Source: a bacterium
GTDB lineage: Bacteria; Thermosulfidibacterota; Thermosulfidibacteria; Thermosulfidibacterales; Thermosulfidibacteraceae
DNA length: 8,085 bases
NCBI GenBank assembly: GCA_027022065.1
Contig: JALVZS010000238.1
Span: forward strand, 9,690-17,774
Reading direction: 5' to 3'
The notes below the pieces were generated by a model, which searched no databases, had not been told where the DNA came from, and worked only from the letters and a program-made list of their open reading frames with translations. Below are positions 1 to 7,637 of the stretch, piece after piece (the stretch's first letter is position 1; every line of letters begins with the position of its first letter). The position numbers were made by a program, and so were the translations under genes.

Positions 1-944
1 GCAAGCACCGTGGGCTCTATAAGCCCAGAAATTTCTGGCATGTTCACCTGCCAGGAGACCTCAAATGAGGAAAGCCCTACAGGAGACTTCTTCCACTCCC
101 TGATGGTTTCCGAAAACAGGTTAATAGCAGAGATTACGGGAACGTTGAGCTTTTTTAGGTATTCCTTGGTTTCTTTTCTTGTTGATGCGCTCATCTTAAA
201 GGCAAAGGAAACAAGCACCTCAACGGGCACCTTCTCATCCAAAAGGAACTTAACTCCTTTGTAGGCGGGATAGCTGTAAAAGGCTACAACTCCCAGGCCC
301 GATTTTTCAATCCTGTCTATTATCCTGTCAATAAATGTGCGCTCCAGAGGATCCAGATACGCTTGGTAGAAGAGCAGGCCCACCCAGTATTTGGGTTTAA
401 ATATGTGATTTTCATACCACGTCTTATATCTGGAAAAGTGTTCAAATATCTTTGGGGCTTTGGGATGGTATATACCCGTTTTTGGAAGCACTAAAGGCTC
501 TTTGAAGCTTATCTTCCTTCCTGCCAGATGCAGGCTATACCTGATCAAGTTTTCGTAGTTTTCCCACAGAGGATTGGCGTAGTACTCCTTCAACCTTTGA
601 TCAAATATGAAGCCCTTTTCTTTCAGCTTTTTGTCGTTCACAGAAGAGTTCACGCAGTAGATCCTGCCGGAAAAACCTCTCTTTTTGAGCTTAAGGGCCA
701 CATCTGCTAGCCTTGGGAGCATCACATCCACAATTAAAACCTTTGCTTCCAAGGCACACTTTAGAATATCCTGCTTTGGGCTTTCCTCATCAACAACGCA
801 CACATCATCTTTAAAAGGAGATCGCTTCAGCACCTCTTCAATGCTGTGGGACCTGTAGCTTCCCACCACAAAGGCCACATCTTTTGCCCACAATGGAAAA
901 CAGTACAAAAGCGCAAGAATAACCGTGATGCTAATCCGGAACAT
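1..944 (-). CDS. Exported CobN-like chelatase large subunit (N-terminal part, cut by window edge)
   Basis: This is the N-terminal 314 residues of a CobN/BchH-type tetrapyrrole metal-chelatase large subunit; the family usually exceeds 1,100 residues, so most lies outside the window. The ATG at 944 is the first start after an in-frame TAG two codons upstream, and it overlaps the DUF2149 gene by 14 bases. Residues 1-20 (MFRISITVILALLYCFPLWA) form a Sec signal peptide with a likely cut after Ala20, so the protein should be periplasmic, unlike cytoplasmic CobN. Family-like stretches are GIYHP (157-161), WVGLLFYQ (187-194) and the WQVNMPEISGLIEP segment (298-311), which resembles the conserved CobN segment around a Pro-Glu-x-x-Gly motif. 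It is the last visible gene of the riboswitch-controlled operon. The known exported relative is HmuS of Bacteroidetes haem loci. Whether this protein inserts or removes metal, and from which tetrapyrrole, cannot be told from the sequence. The family call is firm. Confidence 0.87.
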   Translation of the reverse strand, partial: MFRISITVILALLYCFPLWAKDVAFVVGSYRSHSIEEVLKRSPFKDDVCVVDEESPKQDILKCALEAKVLIVDVMLPRLADVALKLKKRGFSGRIYCVNSSVNDKKLKEKGFIFDQRLKEYYANPLWENYENLIRYSLHLAGRKISFKEPLVLPKTGIYHPKAPKIFEHFSRYKTWYENHIFKPKYWVGLLFYQAYLDPLERTFIDRIIDRIEKSGLGVVAFYSYPAYKGVKFLLDEKVPVEVLVSFAFKMSASTRKETKEYLKKLNVPVISAINLFSETIREWKKSPVGLSSFEVSWQVNMPEISGLIEPTVL

Positions 945-1260
945 ATACTATTCTTCCGTCCTTTAGTCTGTATGCGGTTCCTATCCTCTCTCCTACGATG
1001 CCCTGTGCACTTTTCCCTGCACCTTTGTAAATTTTTATCTCCTTTCCCTTCTTAACAATTATCTCTATCCTTCCTTTTGCGTCCCTTTTGAATATGGTTA
1101 TCTCACTCTTTTTACTGAGGAGGTCCGACACCTTCAAAGCGGTTAGAAGTGCAAGCATAAACCCCAGAACCATAACCAGCGCAAGGTCAAAGAGATTGGC
1201 AACCCCCGTTAAGGGATCCTCATCAACCGTTCTGTGTCTTCTTTTCATAAATCTTGCCAT
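931..1260 (-). CDS. DUF2149 family single-span membrane protein, possible ExbD/TolR-like partner
   Basis: This 109-residue protein has the DUF2149 signature DPLTGVANLFDLALV (15-29). A basic cytoplasmic N-terminus (MARFMKRRHR) is followed by one membrane span at about 24-45, then a small, presumably periplasmic, domain rich in Lys, Ile and Gly. Asp25 sits at the cytoplasmic edge of the span, as does the essential Asp of ExbD/TolR/MotB-type stator proteins. This suggests, but does not prove, that it is the ExbD-like half of a proton-driven unit with the MotA-like protein encoded just upstream. Its start overlaps that gene by 38 bases and its stop overlaps the CobN-like gene by 14, so translation is probably coupled. 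The start at 1260 is the first Met; Met5 (ATG at 1248), with an AAAGGATGG stretch ahead of it, is an equally possible start. The family has no firmly assigned biochemical function. Confidence 0.85.
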   Translation of the reverse strand: MARFMKRRHRTVDEDPLTGVANLFDLALVMVLGFMLALLTALKVSDLLSKKSEITIFKRDAKGRIEIIVKKGKEIKIYKGAGKSAQGIVGERIGTAYRLKDGRIVYVPD

Positions 1261-1789
1261 CCTTTAACGCCCTCTCTGCCATGTATTCCATAAAGGCCAG
1301 GTCTTCGTGTATCCACTTCTGCTTAACCGTTGCTAGAATGTAGGCAATTACTGCGGCGGCAAGTCCCACCACTGTTGTTGTAAAGGCGATTATCATGCTG
1401 GATGTGAGCTGCTCTATCTTTCCCTGGGATAGGGCTGCAAGCCCTGTCCCCATGGGAATAAGCGTTCCCATAAGCCCCAGACTGGGGCCAATTCTTACGA
1501 GCATCTTCAGCCTGTCCAGCGGAGAAAAGGCCCTTTCCTCAAATATTCTCAAGAGCTTTTCCACCTCCACATCATCGCATCCGGCCTCCAAAAGGGATTC
1601 AAACCTTTCGCTGAACAAGGCGATGAGCCTTTTTTCGCCTCTCCTTCTTTTAAAGAACTCTCCCAGGGTTTCTCCCGCTAGGTATACGGAGTAGAAGAAG
1701 ATCACCAAAAGTCCCGCAAGAACGGGGATAAACAGAAGGGACGAGATGAGGTAAAGCACGGACTGAAACAGGGCCACCAGCTTAACCAT
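1223..1789 (-). CDS. MotA/TolQ/ExbB family proton channel protein
   Basis: This 188-residue inner-membrane protein has the three-span plan of the ExbB/TolQ family: span 1 at about 12-38, a cytoplasmic stretch at about 45-95, span 2 at about 97-120 and span 3 at about 131-153. The family core is visible as RIGPSLGLMGTLIPMGTGL (99-117) and the Thr-rich IIAFTTTVVGLAAAV (133-147). Such proteins form a pentameric channel around an ExbD/TolR-type partner and turn the proton gradient into mechanical work on TonB, Tol-Pal or flagellar rotors. Here the partner is most likely the DUF2149 protein encoded next. The gene overlaps the DUF2162 gene by 8 bases and the DUF2149 gene by 38. No TonB gene is in the window, so the energised target could be TonB encoded elsewhere or the exported CobN-like protein. 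The family call is firm; the target is inference. Confidence 0.9.
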   Translation of the reverse strand: MVKLVALFQSVLYLISSLLFIPVLAGLLVIFFYSVYLAGETLGEFFKRRRGEKRLIALFSERFESLLEAGCDDVEVEKLLRIFEERAFSPLDRLKMLVRIGPSLGLMGTLIPMGTGLAALSQGKIEQLTSSMIIAFTTTVVGLAAAVIAYILATVKQKWIHEDLAFMEYMAERALKDGKIYEKKTQNG

Positions 1790-2432
1790 GGGTTCTTATC
1801 CCCCTCAGCACTCCCAATAGCATTACAAGCAGGGTACCAAAAAGTAAAAGTGGCGTTTTGGGAGGAAGGCTGTAGGAGCTCTTTATACCCATGCTGTAGA
1901 CCTTTTTGAAATCTCTGTAGTACCTCGCTCCTGCAAGAAGCAGGATGTAATAGGTCCCCGCTGTTGCCATAACCTCCCAGGGCGAGACTTTTAAAAATCT
2001 TCCAACTGCAAAGAACACCAAAATGCTTGAGGAGAAAATGGTATAAGCGGATAGGGCAATGAGCCAGGAAGGTTCATTTGTTAAAAGGGTTGCAGTGTAT
2101 ATGGAAAAGACAATGGTTAGGAGGCAGAAGGGGCAGGGAAGGAGAAGGAGGTAGGAGATGTGATCTTTTTCCTTCCTACCCCAGCTTATAAAAGACCACA
2201 CGATCAGTCCAACTGCAACAGCTAGGTGGAAGTAAACGGCATATCTTGAAGCTTTTATTATGTGGCTTGCCGCTATAAGTTTCACGATACCAAAGGAAAG
2301 CCCAAACACAGTAAGGTAGCCGGCAAGGGTCAGGGCCAGTTGTTTTATTCCCATGCTTGCTAAAGCAAGTCCCACCCTTGCCGCATAGGCTGCGAAGGCC
2401 ACTGCAAGCGCCCATATCAGGTACTTCTCCAT
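1782..2432 (-). CDS. DUF2162 family multi-pass membrane protein with a CPFC motif
   Basis: This is a 216-residue, strongly hydrophobic protein with about seven predicted membrane spans (roughly 5-25, 33-52, 66-83, 93-115, 123-145, 153-170, 193-210). The most distinctive motif is LLPCPFCLLTIVFS (97-110), whose Cys100 and Cys103 lie inside or at the edge of a span. This Cys-Pro-x-Cys block and the company of MotA-like, DUF2149 and CobN-like genes fit the DUF2162 family of putative transporters. His57, His69 and His91 are nearby candidates for metal binding. Its ATG overlaps the receptor stop codon by one base (TGATG), so the two are translationally coupled. A role in moving a metal ion or an electron across the inner membrane for the periplasmic chelatase is plausible but not demonstrated. 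I am confident of the topology, and moderately confident of the family name. Confidence 0.78.
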   Translation of the reverse strand: MEKYLIWALAVAFAAYAARVGLALASMGIKQLALTLAGYLTVFGLSFGIVKLIAASHIIKASRYAVYFHLAVAVGLIVWSFISWGRKEKDHISYLLLLPCPFCLLTIVFSIYTATLLTNEPSWLIALSAYTIFSSSILVFFAVGRFLKVSPWEVMATAGTYYILLLAGARYYRDFKKVYSMGIKSSYSLPPKTPLLLFGTLLVMLLGVLRGIRTHG

Positions 2433-4432
2433 CAGAAGCTAACCTCCAGTCCGAATCTCCAGGTCCTTCCTGGCATGGGATAGTACTTTACGAAAGAGTA
2501 ATCCTTATCAAACAGGTTGTCTATTTTTACAAAGAGCTTAGCGTGTTTACAGGGCTTCCATGTTATTCCGGCGTTGAACACGGTAAATCCGCCTTTGCTC
2601 ACAGCCTTTCTGTAGTGGGAGCTTTTCCAATTCCACTCCTGCACCTTTTGCCTTCCCACATAGAAGAACGCCACATTTGCCATGAGCTTCTCTGGAAGCC
2701 CTATATCAATACCGCCTGTAATGTTCCACTTGGAGATGTAGGGTACGGTTTCATCCTCAAGCTCTTTTTTATACCTGTCGTCGTCAATCCTTCTCTTTAG
2801 GTAGGTTATGCCGTTTATATGAGGCCTGATAACAAAGGGAAGCTCAAACAGCTCACCAATGTCGTAGGATGCGTAAAACTCTACTCCCTCTAAAGTGGCT
2901 CCATCTACATTTTTGTAAGTGGTCCAGGTGCAGTCGCCGTTGACGCATGTTGAGAAGCCTCCTGCTATTCTGTCGTCGTAATCGGTGTGGAAGATATCTA
3001 TCCCTGCTTTTAGGCTTCCCTTGGAAACATCAATACCTGCTTCATACGTTGTGGATTTTTCGGGATCTAGGCTGGGGTTGCCTATTATTTTACCCCAGCT
3101 TCTGACAAAGTATCCCGAAAGCTCATCTGCCGTAGGTGTTCTGAAGGCAGTTCCCACGGCTGCCCTTAACTTCAACCAGTCAAAGGGCATGTAAGATGCC
3201 CCAATTCTCCATGTAACGTGATCGTAGTCCTCTTCGCTGGTTTTCAAAACCATCTGCTGGGTGGGCCTTAGCTCTTCCTCCCAGTAGTCGTACCTGATTC
3301 CCGCAAGGATGTAGAACCTTCCCAGTGTCAGCTCTCCCTGTAAGTATCCAGCATAGTTGTCATAGGCAGCATTAGGGGAGTAGGGTGTTCCCTTTGGATA
3401 TTTGGCGTTTTTTGTCCTTATCCCATCCCAATCTGCTCCTAGAGTTATCCTTAAGAAGCTTTTGGAGCTTAGCACTCCCCTTAGCCTTATCCCCTGGGTG
3501 TTGGTTATGGTCTTTGTCTTTTTGTATCCCCAGGTCATAGATGGATCGTGCCACTCATTGGAATCCTGAACGTAGTAGTAGCTTACATGGGTGGAGAGCC
3601 ACCTGTTCCACCGGGCATCATAGGCCAAAGATATGTACTTCCTTCTAACATCCTTGTAGTTGTCTTTATCGGGAGAGTATGTAGGCCCTGGATTCCCTAC
3701 ACGCCAGAACTCTGTAAACTGCCCGACAATGCTGATCTCGTGCTCTTTCAAGGGAGAAAATCCAAGCCTGAAGCCACCCTTCCAGTCGTGGTAGTCTGTG
3801 TTGTCTATCTCGTCTCCGTCTCCCGTTTCGTAGTCGTTTCGGTGGCTTTTGGATACAGAGAGGGAGTAATTGAACCTGCCCACCTCTCCCTGGGAGGAGA
3901 ACCACTGCTTGTTATAGTTCCAGCTTCCAAGTTCAACGCCTTCGGAGAAGGTGGGCTTGCCCTTTCCCCTTCTCGTTATGACATTTATCACGCCTCCCAT
4001 GGCGGCGGATCCGTATATGACGGAGGCAGGACCCCTCACTATCTCTATCCTCTCCACATCCTCTAGAGGTATCTCCGCCACATTGCCCGTTCCCGCCCTG
4101 TGGCCGTCAACGAGGATGAGAACCCTTCCCTTTATGTCTGTCCCGTGGGCATCTGTTCTAAAGCCCCTTATGCCAACGCTGGTTAAGAGCCCTGGATACT
4201 TGTGGATGTGACCTGCCAGCTTTTCCTCCAGAAGCTCCCCGAGGTTGTTTGCGTGGGACTGCTCAATCTCTTCTCTAGTTATCACCTGCACATTCACAGG
4301 AAGCCTTGTTACAGGCGTTTCAACGGCTGTGGCGGTCACCACCACCTCTTTGAGCCTTTTGACCCTTTCCTGGGCACCGGCCGAGACAGCAAGGGAAAAA
4401 AGCACGAAGAAGACCAGACACTTTCTGAGCAT
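2432..4432 (-). CDS. TonB-dependent outer-membrane receptor, BtuB-like by regulation
   Basis: This 666-residue receptor should carry a scarce ligand across the outer membrane using TonB energy. Residues 1-20 are a signal peptide (MLRKCLVFFVLFSLAVSAGA). A TonB-box-like KEVVVTATA follows at 28-36. The plug domain spans about 40-155 and ends with the typical RGPASVIYGSAAMGGVINV (133-151). The remainder is a beta-barrel with typical C-terminal blocks: NPSLDPEKSTTYEAGID (452-468), DNLFDKDY (638-645) and a terminal GLEVSF ending in Phe. The ATG at 4432 was chosen because GGAGG lies 6 bases upstream and the signal peptide begins there; the longer reading frame from 4552 would run through the riboswitch terminator. 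Two cysteines, C496 and C501, could form a disulfide in an outer loop. The cobalamin riboswitch upstream makes a corrinoid or cobalt chelate the likeliest ligand. A haem-type ligand remains possible, since the downstream genes resemble a haem module. Confidence 0.93.
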   Translation of the reverse strand: MLRKCLVFFVLFSLAVSAGAQERVKRLKEVVVTATAVETPVTRLPVNVQVITREEIEQSHANNLGELLEEKLAGHIHKYPGLLTSVGIRGFRTDAHGTDIKGRVLILVDGHRAGTGNVAEIPLEDVERIEIVRGPASVIYGSAAMGGVINVITRRGKGKPTFSEGVELGSWNYNKQWFSSQGEVGRFNYSLSVSKSHRNDYETGDGDEIDNTDYHDWKGGFRLGFSPLKEHEISIVGQFTEFWRVGNPGPTYSPDKDNYKDVRRKYISLAYDARWNRWLSTHVSYYYVQDSNEWHDPSMTWGYKKTKTITNTQGIRLRGVLSSKSFLRITLGADWDGIRTKNAKYPKGTPYSPNAAYDNYAGYLQGELTLGRFYILAGIRYDYWEEELRPTQQMVLKTSEEDYDHVTWRIGASYMPFDWLKLRAAVGTAFRTPTADELSGYFVRSWGKIIGNPSLDPEKSTTYEAGIDVSKGSLKAGIDIFHTDYDDRIAGGFSTCVNGDCTWTTYKNVDGATLEGVEFYASYDIGELFELPFVIRPHINGITYLKRRIDDDRYKKELEDETVPYISKWNITGGIDIGLPEKLMANVAFFYVGRQKVQEWNWKSSHYRKAVSKGGFTVFNAGITWKPCKHAKLFVKIDNLFDKDYSFVKYYPMPGRTWRFGLEVSF

Positions 4433-4435
4433 CCC

Positions 4436-4443
4436 TTCCCTCC
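4436..4443 (-). promoter_or_regulatory. Ribosome binding site deciding the receptor start
   Basis: The minus strand reads GGAGGGAA, with the GGAGG core 6 bases before the ATG at 4432. It lies downstream of the intrinsic terminator, so it is present only in read-through transcripts. This supports the start at 4432 over the upstream in-frame ATG at 4552. Confidence 0.8.
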
Positions 4444-4457
4444 GCAAGTTTTTTTGT

Positions 4458-4497
4458 AAAAACAAAAACGCCCCGGCCCTCAGAGAGAGCCGGGGCG
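4458..4497 (-). terminator. Intrinsic terminator of the riboswitch expression platform
   Basis: On the minus strand CGCCCCGGC (4497-4489) pairs perfectly over 9 bp with GCCGGGGCG (4477-4469) around an 11-base loop, and the stem is followed at once by TTTTTGTTTTT (4468-4458). It sits between the cobalamin aptamer and the receptor ribosome binding site. That is the expected place for a transcription-attenuating riboswitch that stops synthesis when adenosylcobalamin is bound. Confidence 0.9.
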
Positions 4498-4540
4498 TAG
4501 TGTATTCCCCTTTGCCCACGGACCCCTCTCCCCGAGGGCC
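4475..4540 (-). promoter_or_regulatory. Candidate antiterminator pairing
   Basis: The minus-strand segment GGCCCTCGGGGAGAG (4540-4526) can pair along its full 15 bases, with two G-U wobbles, with CTCTCTCTGAGGGCC (4489-4475). That target covers the last base of the terminator 5' arm, the whole loop and the first three bases of the 3' arm, so the two folds exclude each other. A small hairpin directly after the aptamer, GGCCC-ATCA-GGGCC (4550-4537), would hide the start of the antiterminator and may be the ligand-stabilised competitor. The base pairing is seen directly; its regulatory use is inferred. Confidence 0.55.
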
Positions 4541-4552
4541 CTGATGGGCCAT

Positions 4553-4728
4553 GTTCCCGGGCCGGTCTCCTGGCTTCCGGATCGTCCTACTCGCCCGCGC
4601 CTTCCCAGAGCCTTAGGCTCCAGTGGCCTGTCGTCCCGCAGGATCTGTGGGACCAAGCGGGCTTTCGTCCCCGGTCACAGTTGCGGGCCAGCGCCGGATT
4701 CTCACCGGACTTCCCGTCACCCGGGAAC
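4553..4728 (-). promoter_or_regulatory. Cobalamin riboswitch aptamer
   Basis: The minus strand shows the conserved blocks of the B12 riboswitch in order: GGTGACGGGAA near the 5' end, CCGGTGAGAATCCGGCGCTG, GCCCGCAACTGTGA (4688-4675), GCCACTG (4627-4621), GGGAAGGC, and the 3' B12 box AGCCAGGAGACC (4575-4564). The closing P1 helix is a perfect 9 bp between GTTCCCGGG (4728-4720) and CCCGGGAAC (4561-4553). These RNAs bind adenosylcobalamin or another cobalamin and lower expression of downstream B12 or cobalt uptake and synthesis genes. It controls the receptor/DUF2162/MotA-like/DUF2149/CobN-like operon and is the strongest evidence in the window about that operon's substrate. Confidence 0.97.
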
Positions 4729-4787: not shown

Positions 4788-5672
4788 TTGAACATAGAGA
4801 TTTTGGGCGCCGACAGTATGGGGGCAAGGAGCATGGCCACCTTCGTTGAGGCAGGTGGCCACAGTTTTCTGATTGATCCTGGTGTTGCCCTTGGCCCTAG
4901 AAGGTATGGCCTCCCTCCTCACAGGCTGGAGTTTGAGGCTAAAGATGCCATATGGAGGCTCATAGAGGAGAGGGCGAAAGTGGCAGAATTTATAGTTATA
5001 ACCCACTACCATTACGACCACTACAATCCAGAAGGGTTGCATGTGTTTGAGGGGAAAGTTTTGTTTATAAAGGATCCCGAAAAAAACATAAACAAAAGCC
5101 AGAAGGGAAGGGCCAGCTATTTTCTTGAGAAGGTTAAGGGCATAGCAAAGGAGATAATCGTTGCCGATGGGAAAAGCTTAAAAATAGGCGATGTGGAGCT
5201 TGTTTTTTCTGAAGCCCAGCCCCATGGCTACACACCTAGGTTGGGCTGTGTGCTACAGGTTTTGATAAGGGAGGGTAATTTTAGCTTTCTCTTTACCTCC
5301 GATATACAAGGTGCGCCCCTTAAAGAGCACCTTGACTTTCTTCTGGAAAGTGGTGCCGATGTGGTGTTCATGGATGGCGCTCCCACATACCTCTTCCCCA
5401 CCAAGTTTTCCAAAAGTGCCCTTGATGCTGCCTTTTCCAATACAGCCTTGTTCGTTGATGAGGCACCCTTCAAGGCCCTTGTCATAGACCACCACACCAC
5501 AAGGGACATAAGGTACCAGAGGTGGTTTGAGGAGATTTTTGCTGTTGCTAAAGAGAAAAACAAAAGGATACTTACTGCTGCAGAATTCATGGGGAGGGAG
5601 AATCTGTTTCTGGAGGCAAGAAGGAGGGAGCTTCACAAGGGTGAGGGTAGCGCTTCGCATAACCAAGTATAA
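4788..5672 (+). CDS. UPF0282 family metallo-beta-lactamase-fold protein
   Basis: This 294-residue protein has the metallo-beta-lactamase fold and should bind a two-metal centre. The metal motif HYHYDH is at 73-78 (His73, His75, Asp77, His78). Other likely ligands are His146, Asp172 in the SDIQG block (171-175) and His235/His236 in the DHH motif (234-236). The N-terminus, with SMGARSMATFV (10-20) and IDPGVALGPRRYGLPPH (29-45), closely resembles the UPF0282 family, which I know mostly from archaea and a few thermophilic bacteria. It is not a standard beta-lactamase or glyoxalase II, and its substrate is unknown. The start is a TTG with a good ribosome binding site. The 3' end overlaps the radical SAM gene by 32 bases. 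It is divergent from the riboswitch operon, so shared function is possible but not shown. Confidence 0.86.
   Translation: MNIEILGADSMGARSMATFVEAGGHSFLIDPGVALGPRRYGLPPHRLEFEAKDAIWRLIEERAKVAEFIVITHYHYDHYNPEGLHVFEGKVLFIKDPEKNINKSQKGRASYFLEKVKGIAKEIIVADGKSLKIGDVELVFSEAQPHGYTPRLGCVLQVLIREGNFSFLFTSDIQGAPLKEHLDFLLESGADVVFMDGAPTYLFPTKFSKSALDAAFSNTALFVDEAPFKALVIDHHTTRDIRYQRWFEEIFAVAKEKNKRILTAAEFMGRENLFLEARRRELHKGEGSASHNQV
5621..5628 (+). promoter_or_regulatory. Ribosome binding site for the radical SAM gene
   Basis: AAGGAGGG inside the end of the UPF0282 gene lies 12 bases before the GTG at 5641. The spacing is slightly long, but no better start is near. It supports GTG 5641 over the in-frame ATG at 5527, which would add 38 residues with no family-like features. 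Confidence 0.55.
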
Positions 5673-6792
5673 CCGATACAGCTTCATCCCCCTTTTCTGG
5701 TTTCTAAAAAGAAGGGGGATTGAGGCTGTCGCTTGCTTCTCTAAAGAGGAGGTGCTTGTTTCTGGGGCCTCTTTTGCCTTTTTTTCCTTCATGACACCCT
5801 TTGCAGAAGAAGCCTACAGGGAAATGGCGGAGCTTAAAGAGAAGGGCTTTAGGGTTATTGCTGGAGGCCCTCATCCCTCGGCATTACCTTACGAGGTGCT
5901 CTCCTCAGGTGCCGATGCGGTGGTTGTGGGAGAGGCAGAAGGCGTGATGGATGAGCTTATAAACGATATAGTTAGCGGTTCTCTAAAGGAGCTTTACAGC
6001 GCTCCGCTTAACAGCTTCCCCACATACAGCATGGAGGCTTCTCCCTACACGGCTGCAGTGGAGCTTGTGAGGGGCTGTCCTTTTGGTTGTAAGTTCTGCC
6101 AGGTGAGCTACCTTTTCGGCAGAAGGCCTAGAAACAGACCCGTTGATGAGGTGCTTTACGAGGCTCAGGTGCTCCTTAAAAGAGAAAGAAGGTTTATAAG
6201 ATTTATAGCTCCCAATGCCCTTTCTTACTATTCCCACAACGGAATTGAACCCAATGTGGAGCTTTTGGAGGAGCTCTTCTCCAAGCTCAAGGAGATGGGA
6301 TTATTGCAGATATTTTTTGGATCCTTTCCCTCTGAGGTGAGACCGGAGTCTGTCAGCGGGAAAGCAGCGGCTATTATGAGGAGGTTTTGTGCCAATAAAA
6401 GGGTTGTGGTTGGTGCTCAAAGCGGTAGCAACGAGAGGCTAAAGGAGCTGGGAAGGGGCCACGTCGTTGAGGATGTGGAAAGGGCTGTGTCCATTCTTAA
6501 CAGCTACGGATTTGAGGTATCTTTGGATTTCATCTTCGGCTTTCCCAAAGAAACGGAAGATGAACAGAGGCAGACACTTGACTTCATAGAAGAGATGCTA
6601 AAGAAATACAAGGTAAAGATCCACGCCCACGCCTTTATACCTCTTCCGGGAACCCCTTACTGGAACGAGGAACCCTCTCCTATACCTAGATGGCTGAAGA
6701 GAAGGCTTCACGAGCTTGAGGAAAAGGGTCTTCTAGACGGCAACTGGGCACAACAGGAGTACTTAAGGAGGAGGCTTTGCAGGCTCCACTGA
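5641..6792 (+). CDS. B12-binding-domain/radical SAM protein, probably MJ1487-like family
   Basis: Read from the GTG at 5641 this is a 383-residue protein. Residues 1 to about 125 form a Rossmann-like cobalamin-binding-type domain, with GGPHPSALPYEVLSSGAD (75-92) and VVVGEAE (94-100) typical of such enzymes. The radical SAM domain follows, with the iron-sulfur cluster motif RGCPFGCKFC at 144-153 (Cys146, Cys150, Cys153) and later blocks GAQSGSNERL (258-267), FIFGFPKETEDE (297-308) and FIPLPGTPY (332-340). The domain order and N-terminus fit the B12-binding/radical SAM group named after archaeal MJ1487, whose reaction is unknown. No DxHxxG cobalamin motif is visible in the N-terminal domain, as in many enzymes of this class, so cofactor binding is not certain. 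The gene overlaps both neighbours (32 bases upstream, 16 downstream). A cobalamin link to the divergent riboswitch operon is possible. Confidence 0.84.
   Translation: MRVALRITKYNRYSFIPLFWFLKRRGIEAVACFSKEEVLVSGASFAFFSFMTPFAEEAYREMAELKEKGFRVIAGGPHPSALPYEVLSSGADAVVVGEAEGVMDELINDIVSGSLKELYSAPLNSFPTYSMEASPYTAAVELVRGCPFGCKFCQVSYLFGRRPRNRPVDEVLYEAQVLLKRERRFIRFIAPNALSYYSHNGIEPNVELLEELFSKLKEMGLLQIFFGSFPSEVRPESVSGKAAAIMRRFCANKRVVVGAQSGSNERLKELGRGHVVEDVERAVSILNSYGFEVSLDFIFGFPKETEDEQRQTLDFIEEMLKKYKVKIHAHAFIPLPGTPYWNEEPSPIPRWLKRRLHELEEKGLLDGNWAQQEYLRRRLCRLH
6765..6774 (+). promoter_or_regulatory. Ribosome binding site for ispH TTG start
   Basis: AAGGAGGAGG lies just before the TTG at 6777, inside the 3' end of the radical SAM gene; the AAGGAGG part is 5 bases from the TTG. 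This very strong site supports the rare start codon. Confidence 0.75.
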
Positions 6793-7637
6793 TAAAGGTG
6801 GCGGAAAAAGCGGGTTTTTGTTTTGGGGTGAAGAGGGCTGTAAGGATGGCTTACGATGCTGCATCTTCTTGCAGCGGTCCTGTTTACACCCTTGGTCCCC
6901 TCATCCACAACCCCCAGGTGGTAGAAAGGCTCAAAGGCATGGGAATAGATGTGTGCGATAACTATGAGGAGCTTCCTCCAGGGGCAACGGTGATAATAAG
7001 GTCCCACGGGGTTCCACTGGAGGTGCTGGAGTTTCTGAGGTCCAGGGGGGTCAGGATAATAGATGCCACATGCCCCTTTGTGAAAAAGGCACAAGATATA
7101 GTCGCTACACTCACCAACAGCGAGTATCATGTTGTAATTGTGGGCGATGGGAACCATCCAGAGGTAAAAGCGCTTCTCTCCTACGGGAAAGGGCGTGCTT
7201 CTATATTCCCCCATGTTCCCGACGGCGTCTTAAAGCTTGGCGTGGTTTCCCAAACTACACAGCTTCTTGAAAAATTTATAGAGTGCATAAAGTGGCTGAT
7301 AGGGCATCGCGAGTTTCAGGAGGTCAGAATCTACAATACGGTTTGCCAGTCCACTGCAGAAAGACAGAAAGAGTGCAAAAGGCTCGCCCAAGAGGCGGAT
7401 CTGGTAATCGTTGTAGGTGGTAGAAACAGCGCCGGTGCCAAAAAGCTGTGGGTGGTAGCTTCTGAAGAGGTGGAGGCGTATCACATAGAGGTGGCGGAAG
7501 AGCTAAATCCCTCTTGGTTTTTAGGAAAAAGAGTGATAGGGATAACGGCTGGAGCTTCTACGCCAGAGTGGATAATATCCGAGGTGGTTGAGGAGGTTAA
7601 AAGAATAACGGGAGGTAAGGTAGATGGAAGAGGTTAG
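6777..7637 (+). CDS. ispH: 4-hydroxy-3-methylbut-2-enyl diphosphate reductase
   Basis: IspH (LytB) catalyses the last step of the non-mevalonate isoprenoid pathway, reducing HMBPP to IPP and DMAPP with an iron-sulfur cluster in the cytoplasm. The 286-residue length is normal. Cluster ligands are Cys15 (KAGFCFGVKRAV), Cys99 (IDATCPFVKKAQ) and Cys190 (YNTVCQSTAERQ). Substrate-site motifs include HNPQVV (44-49), RSHGVP (75-80), NHPEV (126-130), VSQTT (157-161) and TAGASTPEWI (257-266). One oddity is NSAGAKKL at 216-223: many homologues read NSSN there, so residues matching E. coli Ser226 and Asn227 appear to be Ala and Gly. The start is TTG 6777 with a strong ribosome binding site, overlapping the upstream gene by 16 bases; the 3' end overlaps rpsA by 14. 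The ispH-rpsA order is common in bacteria. Confidence 0.96.
   Translation: MQAPLIKVAEKAGFCFGVKRAVRMAYDAASSCSGPVYTLGPLIHNPQVVERLKGMGIDVCDNYEELPPGATVIIRSHGVPLEVLEFLRSRGVRIIDATCPFVKKAQDIVATLTNSEYHVVIVGDGNHPEVKALLSYGKGRASIFPHVPDGVLKLGVVSQTTQLLEKFIECIKWLIGHREFQEVRIYNTVCQSTAERQKECKRLAQEADLVIVVGGRNSAGAKKLWVVASEEVEAYHIEVAEELNPSWFLGKRVIGITAGASTPEWIISEVVEEVKRITGGKVDGRG

Follow-up and report, generated by a model that had tools for sequence, protein, structure and literature searches.

A cobalamin-riboswitch operon on the hmu plan in Thermosulfidibacteraceae, with a BtuS-type CobN-like protein, CbiZ and a predicted role in corrinoid salvage

We analyzed an 8,085-nucleotide stretch of DNA (the window; G000:C238:9690-17774, contig JALVZS010000238.1 of assembly GCA_027022065.1) from a 1.57-Mb, 88% complete draft genome of a bacterium of the Thermosulfidibacteraceae, which carries on its minus strand an operon headed by a cobalamin riboswitch. 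Positions are those of the window unless a locus is named. The aptamer (4739-4543, minus strand) matches RF00174 over its full length (cmscan, model positions 1-189), with 92.2 bits against a gathering score of 31.5 and an E-value of 1.8e-22. Behind it, the Pfam and Rfam scans of the window place, in this order, a TonB-dependent outer-membrane receptor (2432-4432; barrel PF00593, 1.1e-53; plug PF07715, 6.6e-23), a DUF2162 membrane protein with a PCPFC motif (1782-2432; PF09930, 1.1e-17), a proton-channel protein of the MotA/TolQ/ExbB type (1223-1789; PF01618, 1e-11), a DUF2149 protein with one membrane helix and a conserved aspartate, D25 (931-1260; PF09919, 5e-27), and the N-terminal part of a CobN-like protein (3-944; PF02514, 6.6e-37). 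Adjacent genes overlap by 1, 8, 38 and 14 bases, counted from the receptor towards the CobN-like gene; from this overlap and the conservation described below, we infer a single transcript. The left edge of the window is a 10-N scaffold gap that cuts the CobN-like gene, which resumes on the contig (L006:6993-9679; PF02514, 1.7e-255) and is followed by a gene for CbiZ (L006:5800-7002), so that the operon holds at least six genes. The original prediction had described five overlapping genes behind a cobalamin riboswitch, with the gene set of the Bacteroidota hmu haem locus placed under a switch for cobalamin. Both the gene order and the pairing of gene set and switch hold; the extent needed correction, as the riboswitch reaches 4739, not 4728, and the CobN-like gene runs past the window edge.

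Between the aptamer and the receptor gene sits a terminator-like hairpin with a T tail (4498-4468, minus strand; 14 pairs, 11 of them G-C; fold z-score -3.9), which is the probable expression platform, and comparable hairpins lie 3' of the aptamer in most relatives. This placement suggests that control works through premature termination. For the receptor, 4432 is the most likely start, since the longer open reading frame (ORF) would begin within the riboswitch. Two sister genomes (G007 and G008) have an identical gene order and have kept both the riboswitch and CbiZ; because the same order and riboswitch recur in both, chance can be excluded for this layout. At three other loci, a tandem pair of cobalamin riboswitches stands before the same operon (L021:13559-14147, L039:13394-13956 and L043:11879-12375).

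We then surveyed two other phyla by whole-genome searches (a DUF2149 contig scan alone gave eight loci); the two samples were assigned to their phyla by the named seed loci, L017 and L019, and all riboswitch counts rest on Rfam matches. DUF2149 scored over its cut-off in 34 of 297 Desulfobacterota genomes, versus 3 of 296 Bacteroidota genomes. CobN is chained to DUF2149 at 29 of 35 Desulfobacterota loci (seed genome G013 included), CbiZ lies in the gene chain at 15 of the 35, and CbiK-type chelatase genes adjoin several of the operons. Operons were considered assessable if CobN was present and at least 600 bases lay upstream. RF00174 was found within 1.5 kb at the head of 18 of the 23 assessable Desulfobacterota operons (17 of 22 without the seed). 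Since the genomes with this family hold only 1 to 10 cobalamin riboswitches each, this placement is far beyond chance.

The best pointer to the function of the operon is CbiZ, by family an adenosylcobinamide amidohydrolase. Its domain scores 156.2 bits against a cut-off of 27 (PF01955, E-value 1.3e-45), and CbiZ converts cobinamide, and in bacteria pseudo-B12, to cobyric acid (PMC3541065). In the protein of the window genome, about 190 residues without a Pfam match precede this domain, and a signal-peptide-like start is seen by eye; the automatic test missed this protein and detected both of its sister counterparts. Such starts occur in most of the CbiZ set from these operons, and the CbiZ studied here is probably exported. 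Each of the three genomes in the family with the module carries CbiZ inside the operon. In the Desulfobacterota operons L038 and L057, both scanned CbiZ proteins are fusions, with a BtuF-like domain (PF01497) before the CbiZ domain.

For the CobN-like protein, the top solved relative is HmuS, which removes iron from haem and whose key residues are the haem ligand His254, His538, which is needed for turnover, and His1209 with Glu1212 (PMC12583661). The head region, where the Met79 haem ligand falls, lies beyond the part of the protein aligned to 9d26. The window protein keeps His538 (HLGTHG) and has Phe for His254, Asp for His1209 and Gln for Glu1212. Its riboswitch-headed relatives likewise keep His538, with a hydrophobic residue at the His254 column, Asp at His1209 and Gln (Met in a few) at Glu1212, while the riboswitch-free Bacteroidota proteins L055 and L056 have all four HmuS residues. 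In a tree of the CobN-like proteins, which was rooted for drawing only and holds no CobN or ChlH rows, L055 and L056 are split off by a long branch with full support, and the phylum of the window falls within the riboswitch-rich group. Judged by the three replaced residues, the protein is probably not a haem dechelatase of the HmuS type. In the same kind of operon in Chitinophaga sp. YR573, here without a riboswitch, the CobN-like protein (L019:10337-14335) has Phe at the His538 column, which may reflect either a loss of chelatase chemistry or a misalignment.

The protein shares its fold family and a DDxxQ active-site pattern (DNDDVFQYLGG in the window) with CobN of the aerobic cobaltochelatase CobNST, whose solved chains 7c6o and 9uk9 both show the pattern. 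It differs from CobN in its predicted membrane anchoring outside the cytoplasm, in an extra C-terminal cysteine-containing region and in its lack of CobST partners: no CobS-, CobT- or ChlD-type subunit scored over the cut-off of TIGR02442 in the nine genomes of the phylum (the window's own being 88% complete). A CC(D/E)HTCNNP stretch is present in nearly all riboswitch-linked CobN-like proteins, and HmuS has two cysteines there. On the contig, the C-terminus consists of a hydrophobic, transmembrane-like stretch and a basic tail. With its PF02514 match, predicted C-terminal transmembrane helix, riboswitch link and predicted extracytoplasmic location, the protein fits BtuS, which was named as a third type of CobN by comparative genomics (Rodionov 2003, as cited in PMC6460266) and is likewise B12-linked, neither CobN nor ChlH, and predicted to be membrane-anchored outside the cytoplasm.

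Among the membrane partners, DUF2149 carries its transmembrane aspartate (D25) in 98% of 46 sequences, as in ExbD-type stators; its structure model (predicted local distance difference test, pLDDT, 62) has one helix with this residue and a soluble part that is beta-rich at low confidence. The PCP(F/V/I)C motif of DUF2162 is invariant in 31 of 31 homologues, and offers a lead for redox or metal chemistry. The DUF2162 model (mean pLDDT 62) had no Foldseek match under an E-value of 0.001, and in a second structure comparison many helical transporters scored only moderately (best Z 9.8, root-mean-square deviation 3.6 over 149 residues), a result that we leave uninterpreted. DUF2149 is also present in our control genome, Methanosarcina acetivorans. 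Archaea have no outer membrane, and therefore the MotA/DUF2149 pair cannot serve TonB receptors only. The receptor itself scores below the BtuB cut-off of TIGR01779 (168.6 versus 599.7 bits). In one sister genome, an ORF with a TonB-like C-terminal domain lies directly upstream of the riboswitch (L011:5285-5956).

The original prediction had noted no BtuCDF-type ATP-binding cassette (ABC) transport, which does not hold for the genome as a whole. A second cobalamin riboswitch (L007:13763-13574 on contig C14, 100.4 bits) heads an operon (L007:13763-6338) that encodes a porin, CbiK, an ABC-2 pair, a FecCD permease, an ATPase, a periplasmic binding protein and a tetrapyrrole methylase. On these assignments, BtuCDF-like transport is present in the genome, under its own riboswitch and away from the operon studied here. 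The CbiK of this second operon has a signal-peptide-like start, and may be a second chelatase-type protein outside the cytoplasm under B12 control. FecCD permeases occur in all nine genomes of the phylum and DUF2149 in only three, so that the module is an addition rather than the basic B12 route. We also considered B12 auxotrophy as the reason for the operon. While CbiD is missing from the 88% complete window genome, it is present in both operon-carrying sisters, and this idea was rejected.

Both the BtuS family and hmu-like operons headed by a riboswitch have been published before, and the operon described here is a variant of them. The original prediction knew of no characterised example, which is fair for the function; the type itself had been described, as BtuS (Rodionov 2003, as cited in PMC6460266) and, in one paragraph, as riboswitch-headed hmu-like operons without HmuY in Bacteroides fragilis NCTC 9343 (PMC10100974). 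The latter belong to Bacteroidota, whereas ours lie in other phyla and come with CbiZ and residue evidence; the BtuS members tested, BtuS1 and BtuS2 of B. fragilis, were studied for haem iron (PMC6460266). With hmuYRSTUV of Bacteroidota (PMC12583661, PMC10100974) the operon has in common a receptor, a membrane protein, an ExbB-like protein and DUF2149 in one operon, along with a CobN-like protein that has a signal or anchor, a C-terminal transmembrane segment and His538. It differs in its cobalamin riboswitch and CbiZ, in the absence of the HmuY family among the Pfam matches of its proteins, and in the CobN-type DDxxQ and the replacement of His254, His1209 and Glu1212. The haem-dechelatase activity of HmuS was demonstrated only in 2025, in a paper that states that no function can be assigned to most HmuS relatives (PMC12583661). 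Like BtuB-BtuCDF uptake, the operon places a TonB receptor under a cobalamin riboswitch, but it has no ABC transporter of its own. In the literature searched, from which subscription papers (including the full Rodionov 2003) were outside scope, we found no link of the module to an exported CbiZ or to the residue swap.

Taken together, we consider it probable, though with clear reserve, that this is a B12-repressed, proton-powered operon for the salvage or remodelling of corrinoids, built on the hmu plan. A corrinoid is the most likely substrate because of the co-operonic CbiZ, the BtuF-CbiZ fusions in relatives and CobN residues of the cobaltochelatase rather than the haem-dechelatase type, and the corrinoid-type substrate of the original prediction gains support from the same evidence. 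When coenzyme B12 is scarce, the riboswitch would, by its anatomy, let transcription pass the terminator; the TonB receptor would then bring corrinoids into the periplasm, where the secreted CbiZ (family activity known, export predicted) would remove the lower loop to give cobyric acid. Outside the inner membrane, the chelatase cleft of the membrane-anchored BtuS would hold the corrin ring. MotA and DUF2149 may form an ExbBD-like proton motor; together with DUF2162, this motor would power BtuS and so take the role of the missing AAA+ subunits. The operon would act beside BtuCDF, not instead of it. For the BtuS step, our tentative preference is that the protein captures the processed ring and passes it to or across the inner membrane. 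We rank this over cobalt exchange, which we hold possible but rather unlikely, since a cell short of B12 is better off retaining a ring with its cobalt.

Several points weigh against corrinoid salvage as just set out. Five of the 23 assessable Desulfobacterota operons lack a riboswitch at their head, the best model of the receptor is a haem family (below cut-off) and its sequence leaves the ligand undecided, the structure models of DUF2162 and DUF2149 are too weak to help, and ligand and activity are predictions from genes and sequence. It is also conceivable that the proton motor works for the TonB receptor only. Moreover, the chelatase-like cleft, the CPxC motif and the nearby CbiK keep cobalt exchange alive, and the CobN active-site signature with CbiK near several operons would also fit cobalt chemistry. 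Under such chemistry, BtuS would be a periplasmic cobalt chelatase or dechelatase, driven by protons through MotA/DUF2149 and receiving electrons via the CPxC of DUF2162; acting on corrinoids or other cobalt tetrapyrroles, it would take out, insert or exchange the metal and so supply cobalt or repaired rings. We regard this as somewhat improbable, even though the top solved relative of BtuS, HmuS, takes iron from haem (PMC12583661), the His538 needed for HmuS turnover is kept beside the DDxxQ signature, the CPxC is invariant, and CbiK-type genes both adjoin several operons and sit in the genome's other riboswitch operon. The energy-giving CobST-type subunits are absent (none over cut-off in nine genomes), and keeping a cobalt-containing ring would pay more for a starved cell. 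We also know of no enzymatic removal of cobalt from corrinoids. Metal insertion or removal and proton drive were both part of the original prediction, and we infer them here at most; we find it doubtful that BtuS, DUF2162, MotA and DUF2149 make up a proton-driven, extracytoplasmic enzyme for inserting, removing or exchanging corrinoid cobalt, in which the ExbBD-like pair takes the role that the AAA+ motor has in class I chelatases.

It is similarly unlikely that MotA and DUF2149 simply act as the ExbB-ExbD pair that is dedicated to the TonB receptor of this operon, with BtuS as a passive periplasmic corrinoid binder feeding BtuCDF. The transmembrane aspartate of DUF2149 is as expected for ExbD-type proteins, a TonB-like ORF precedes the riboswitch in a sister genome, BtuCDF is present in the genome, and HmuU/HmuV are assigned to the receptor in the hmu literature (PMC12583661); however, DUF2149 occurs in an archaeon, and MotA/DUF2149 are kept tightest with CobN, including in operons where the receptor has a different place. 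An ordinary hmu haem-iron system that came under a cobalamin switch would explain the shared gene set and the haem-family model of the receptor. We set haem uptake aside as highly improbable on residues and gene neighbourhood: the scanned operon proteins gave no HmuY match, the HmuS-specific His254, His1209 and Glu1212 are absent, and CbiZ and the riboswitch are conserved across lineages.

Regulation, gene partners and the named residues set a B12-linked CobN-like branch, with a predicted substrate, apart from the haem branch. HmuT, HmuV and HmuY have been proposed as diagnostic of haem transport (PMC10100974); contrary to that proposal, our comparison indicates that DUF2149 (HmuV) is not diagnostic, and we caution against taking it as a sign of haem transport. 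The operon offers a testable case of predicted corrinoid processing outside the inner membrane, and of a proton motor that may act on a protein of the chelatase fold. Divergently from it, the window encodes a radical SAM protein with a B12-binding domain (5641-6792, plus strand; TIGR04013, 370.7 bits), whose neighbours are a metallo-beta-lactamase-fold gene (4788-5672), IspH (6777-7637) and an S1-domain protein.

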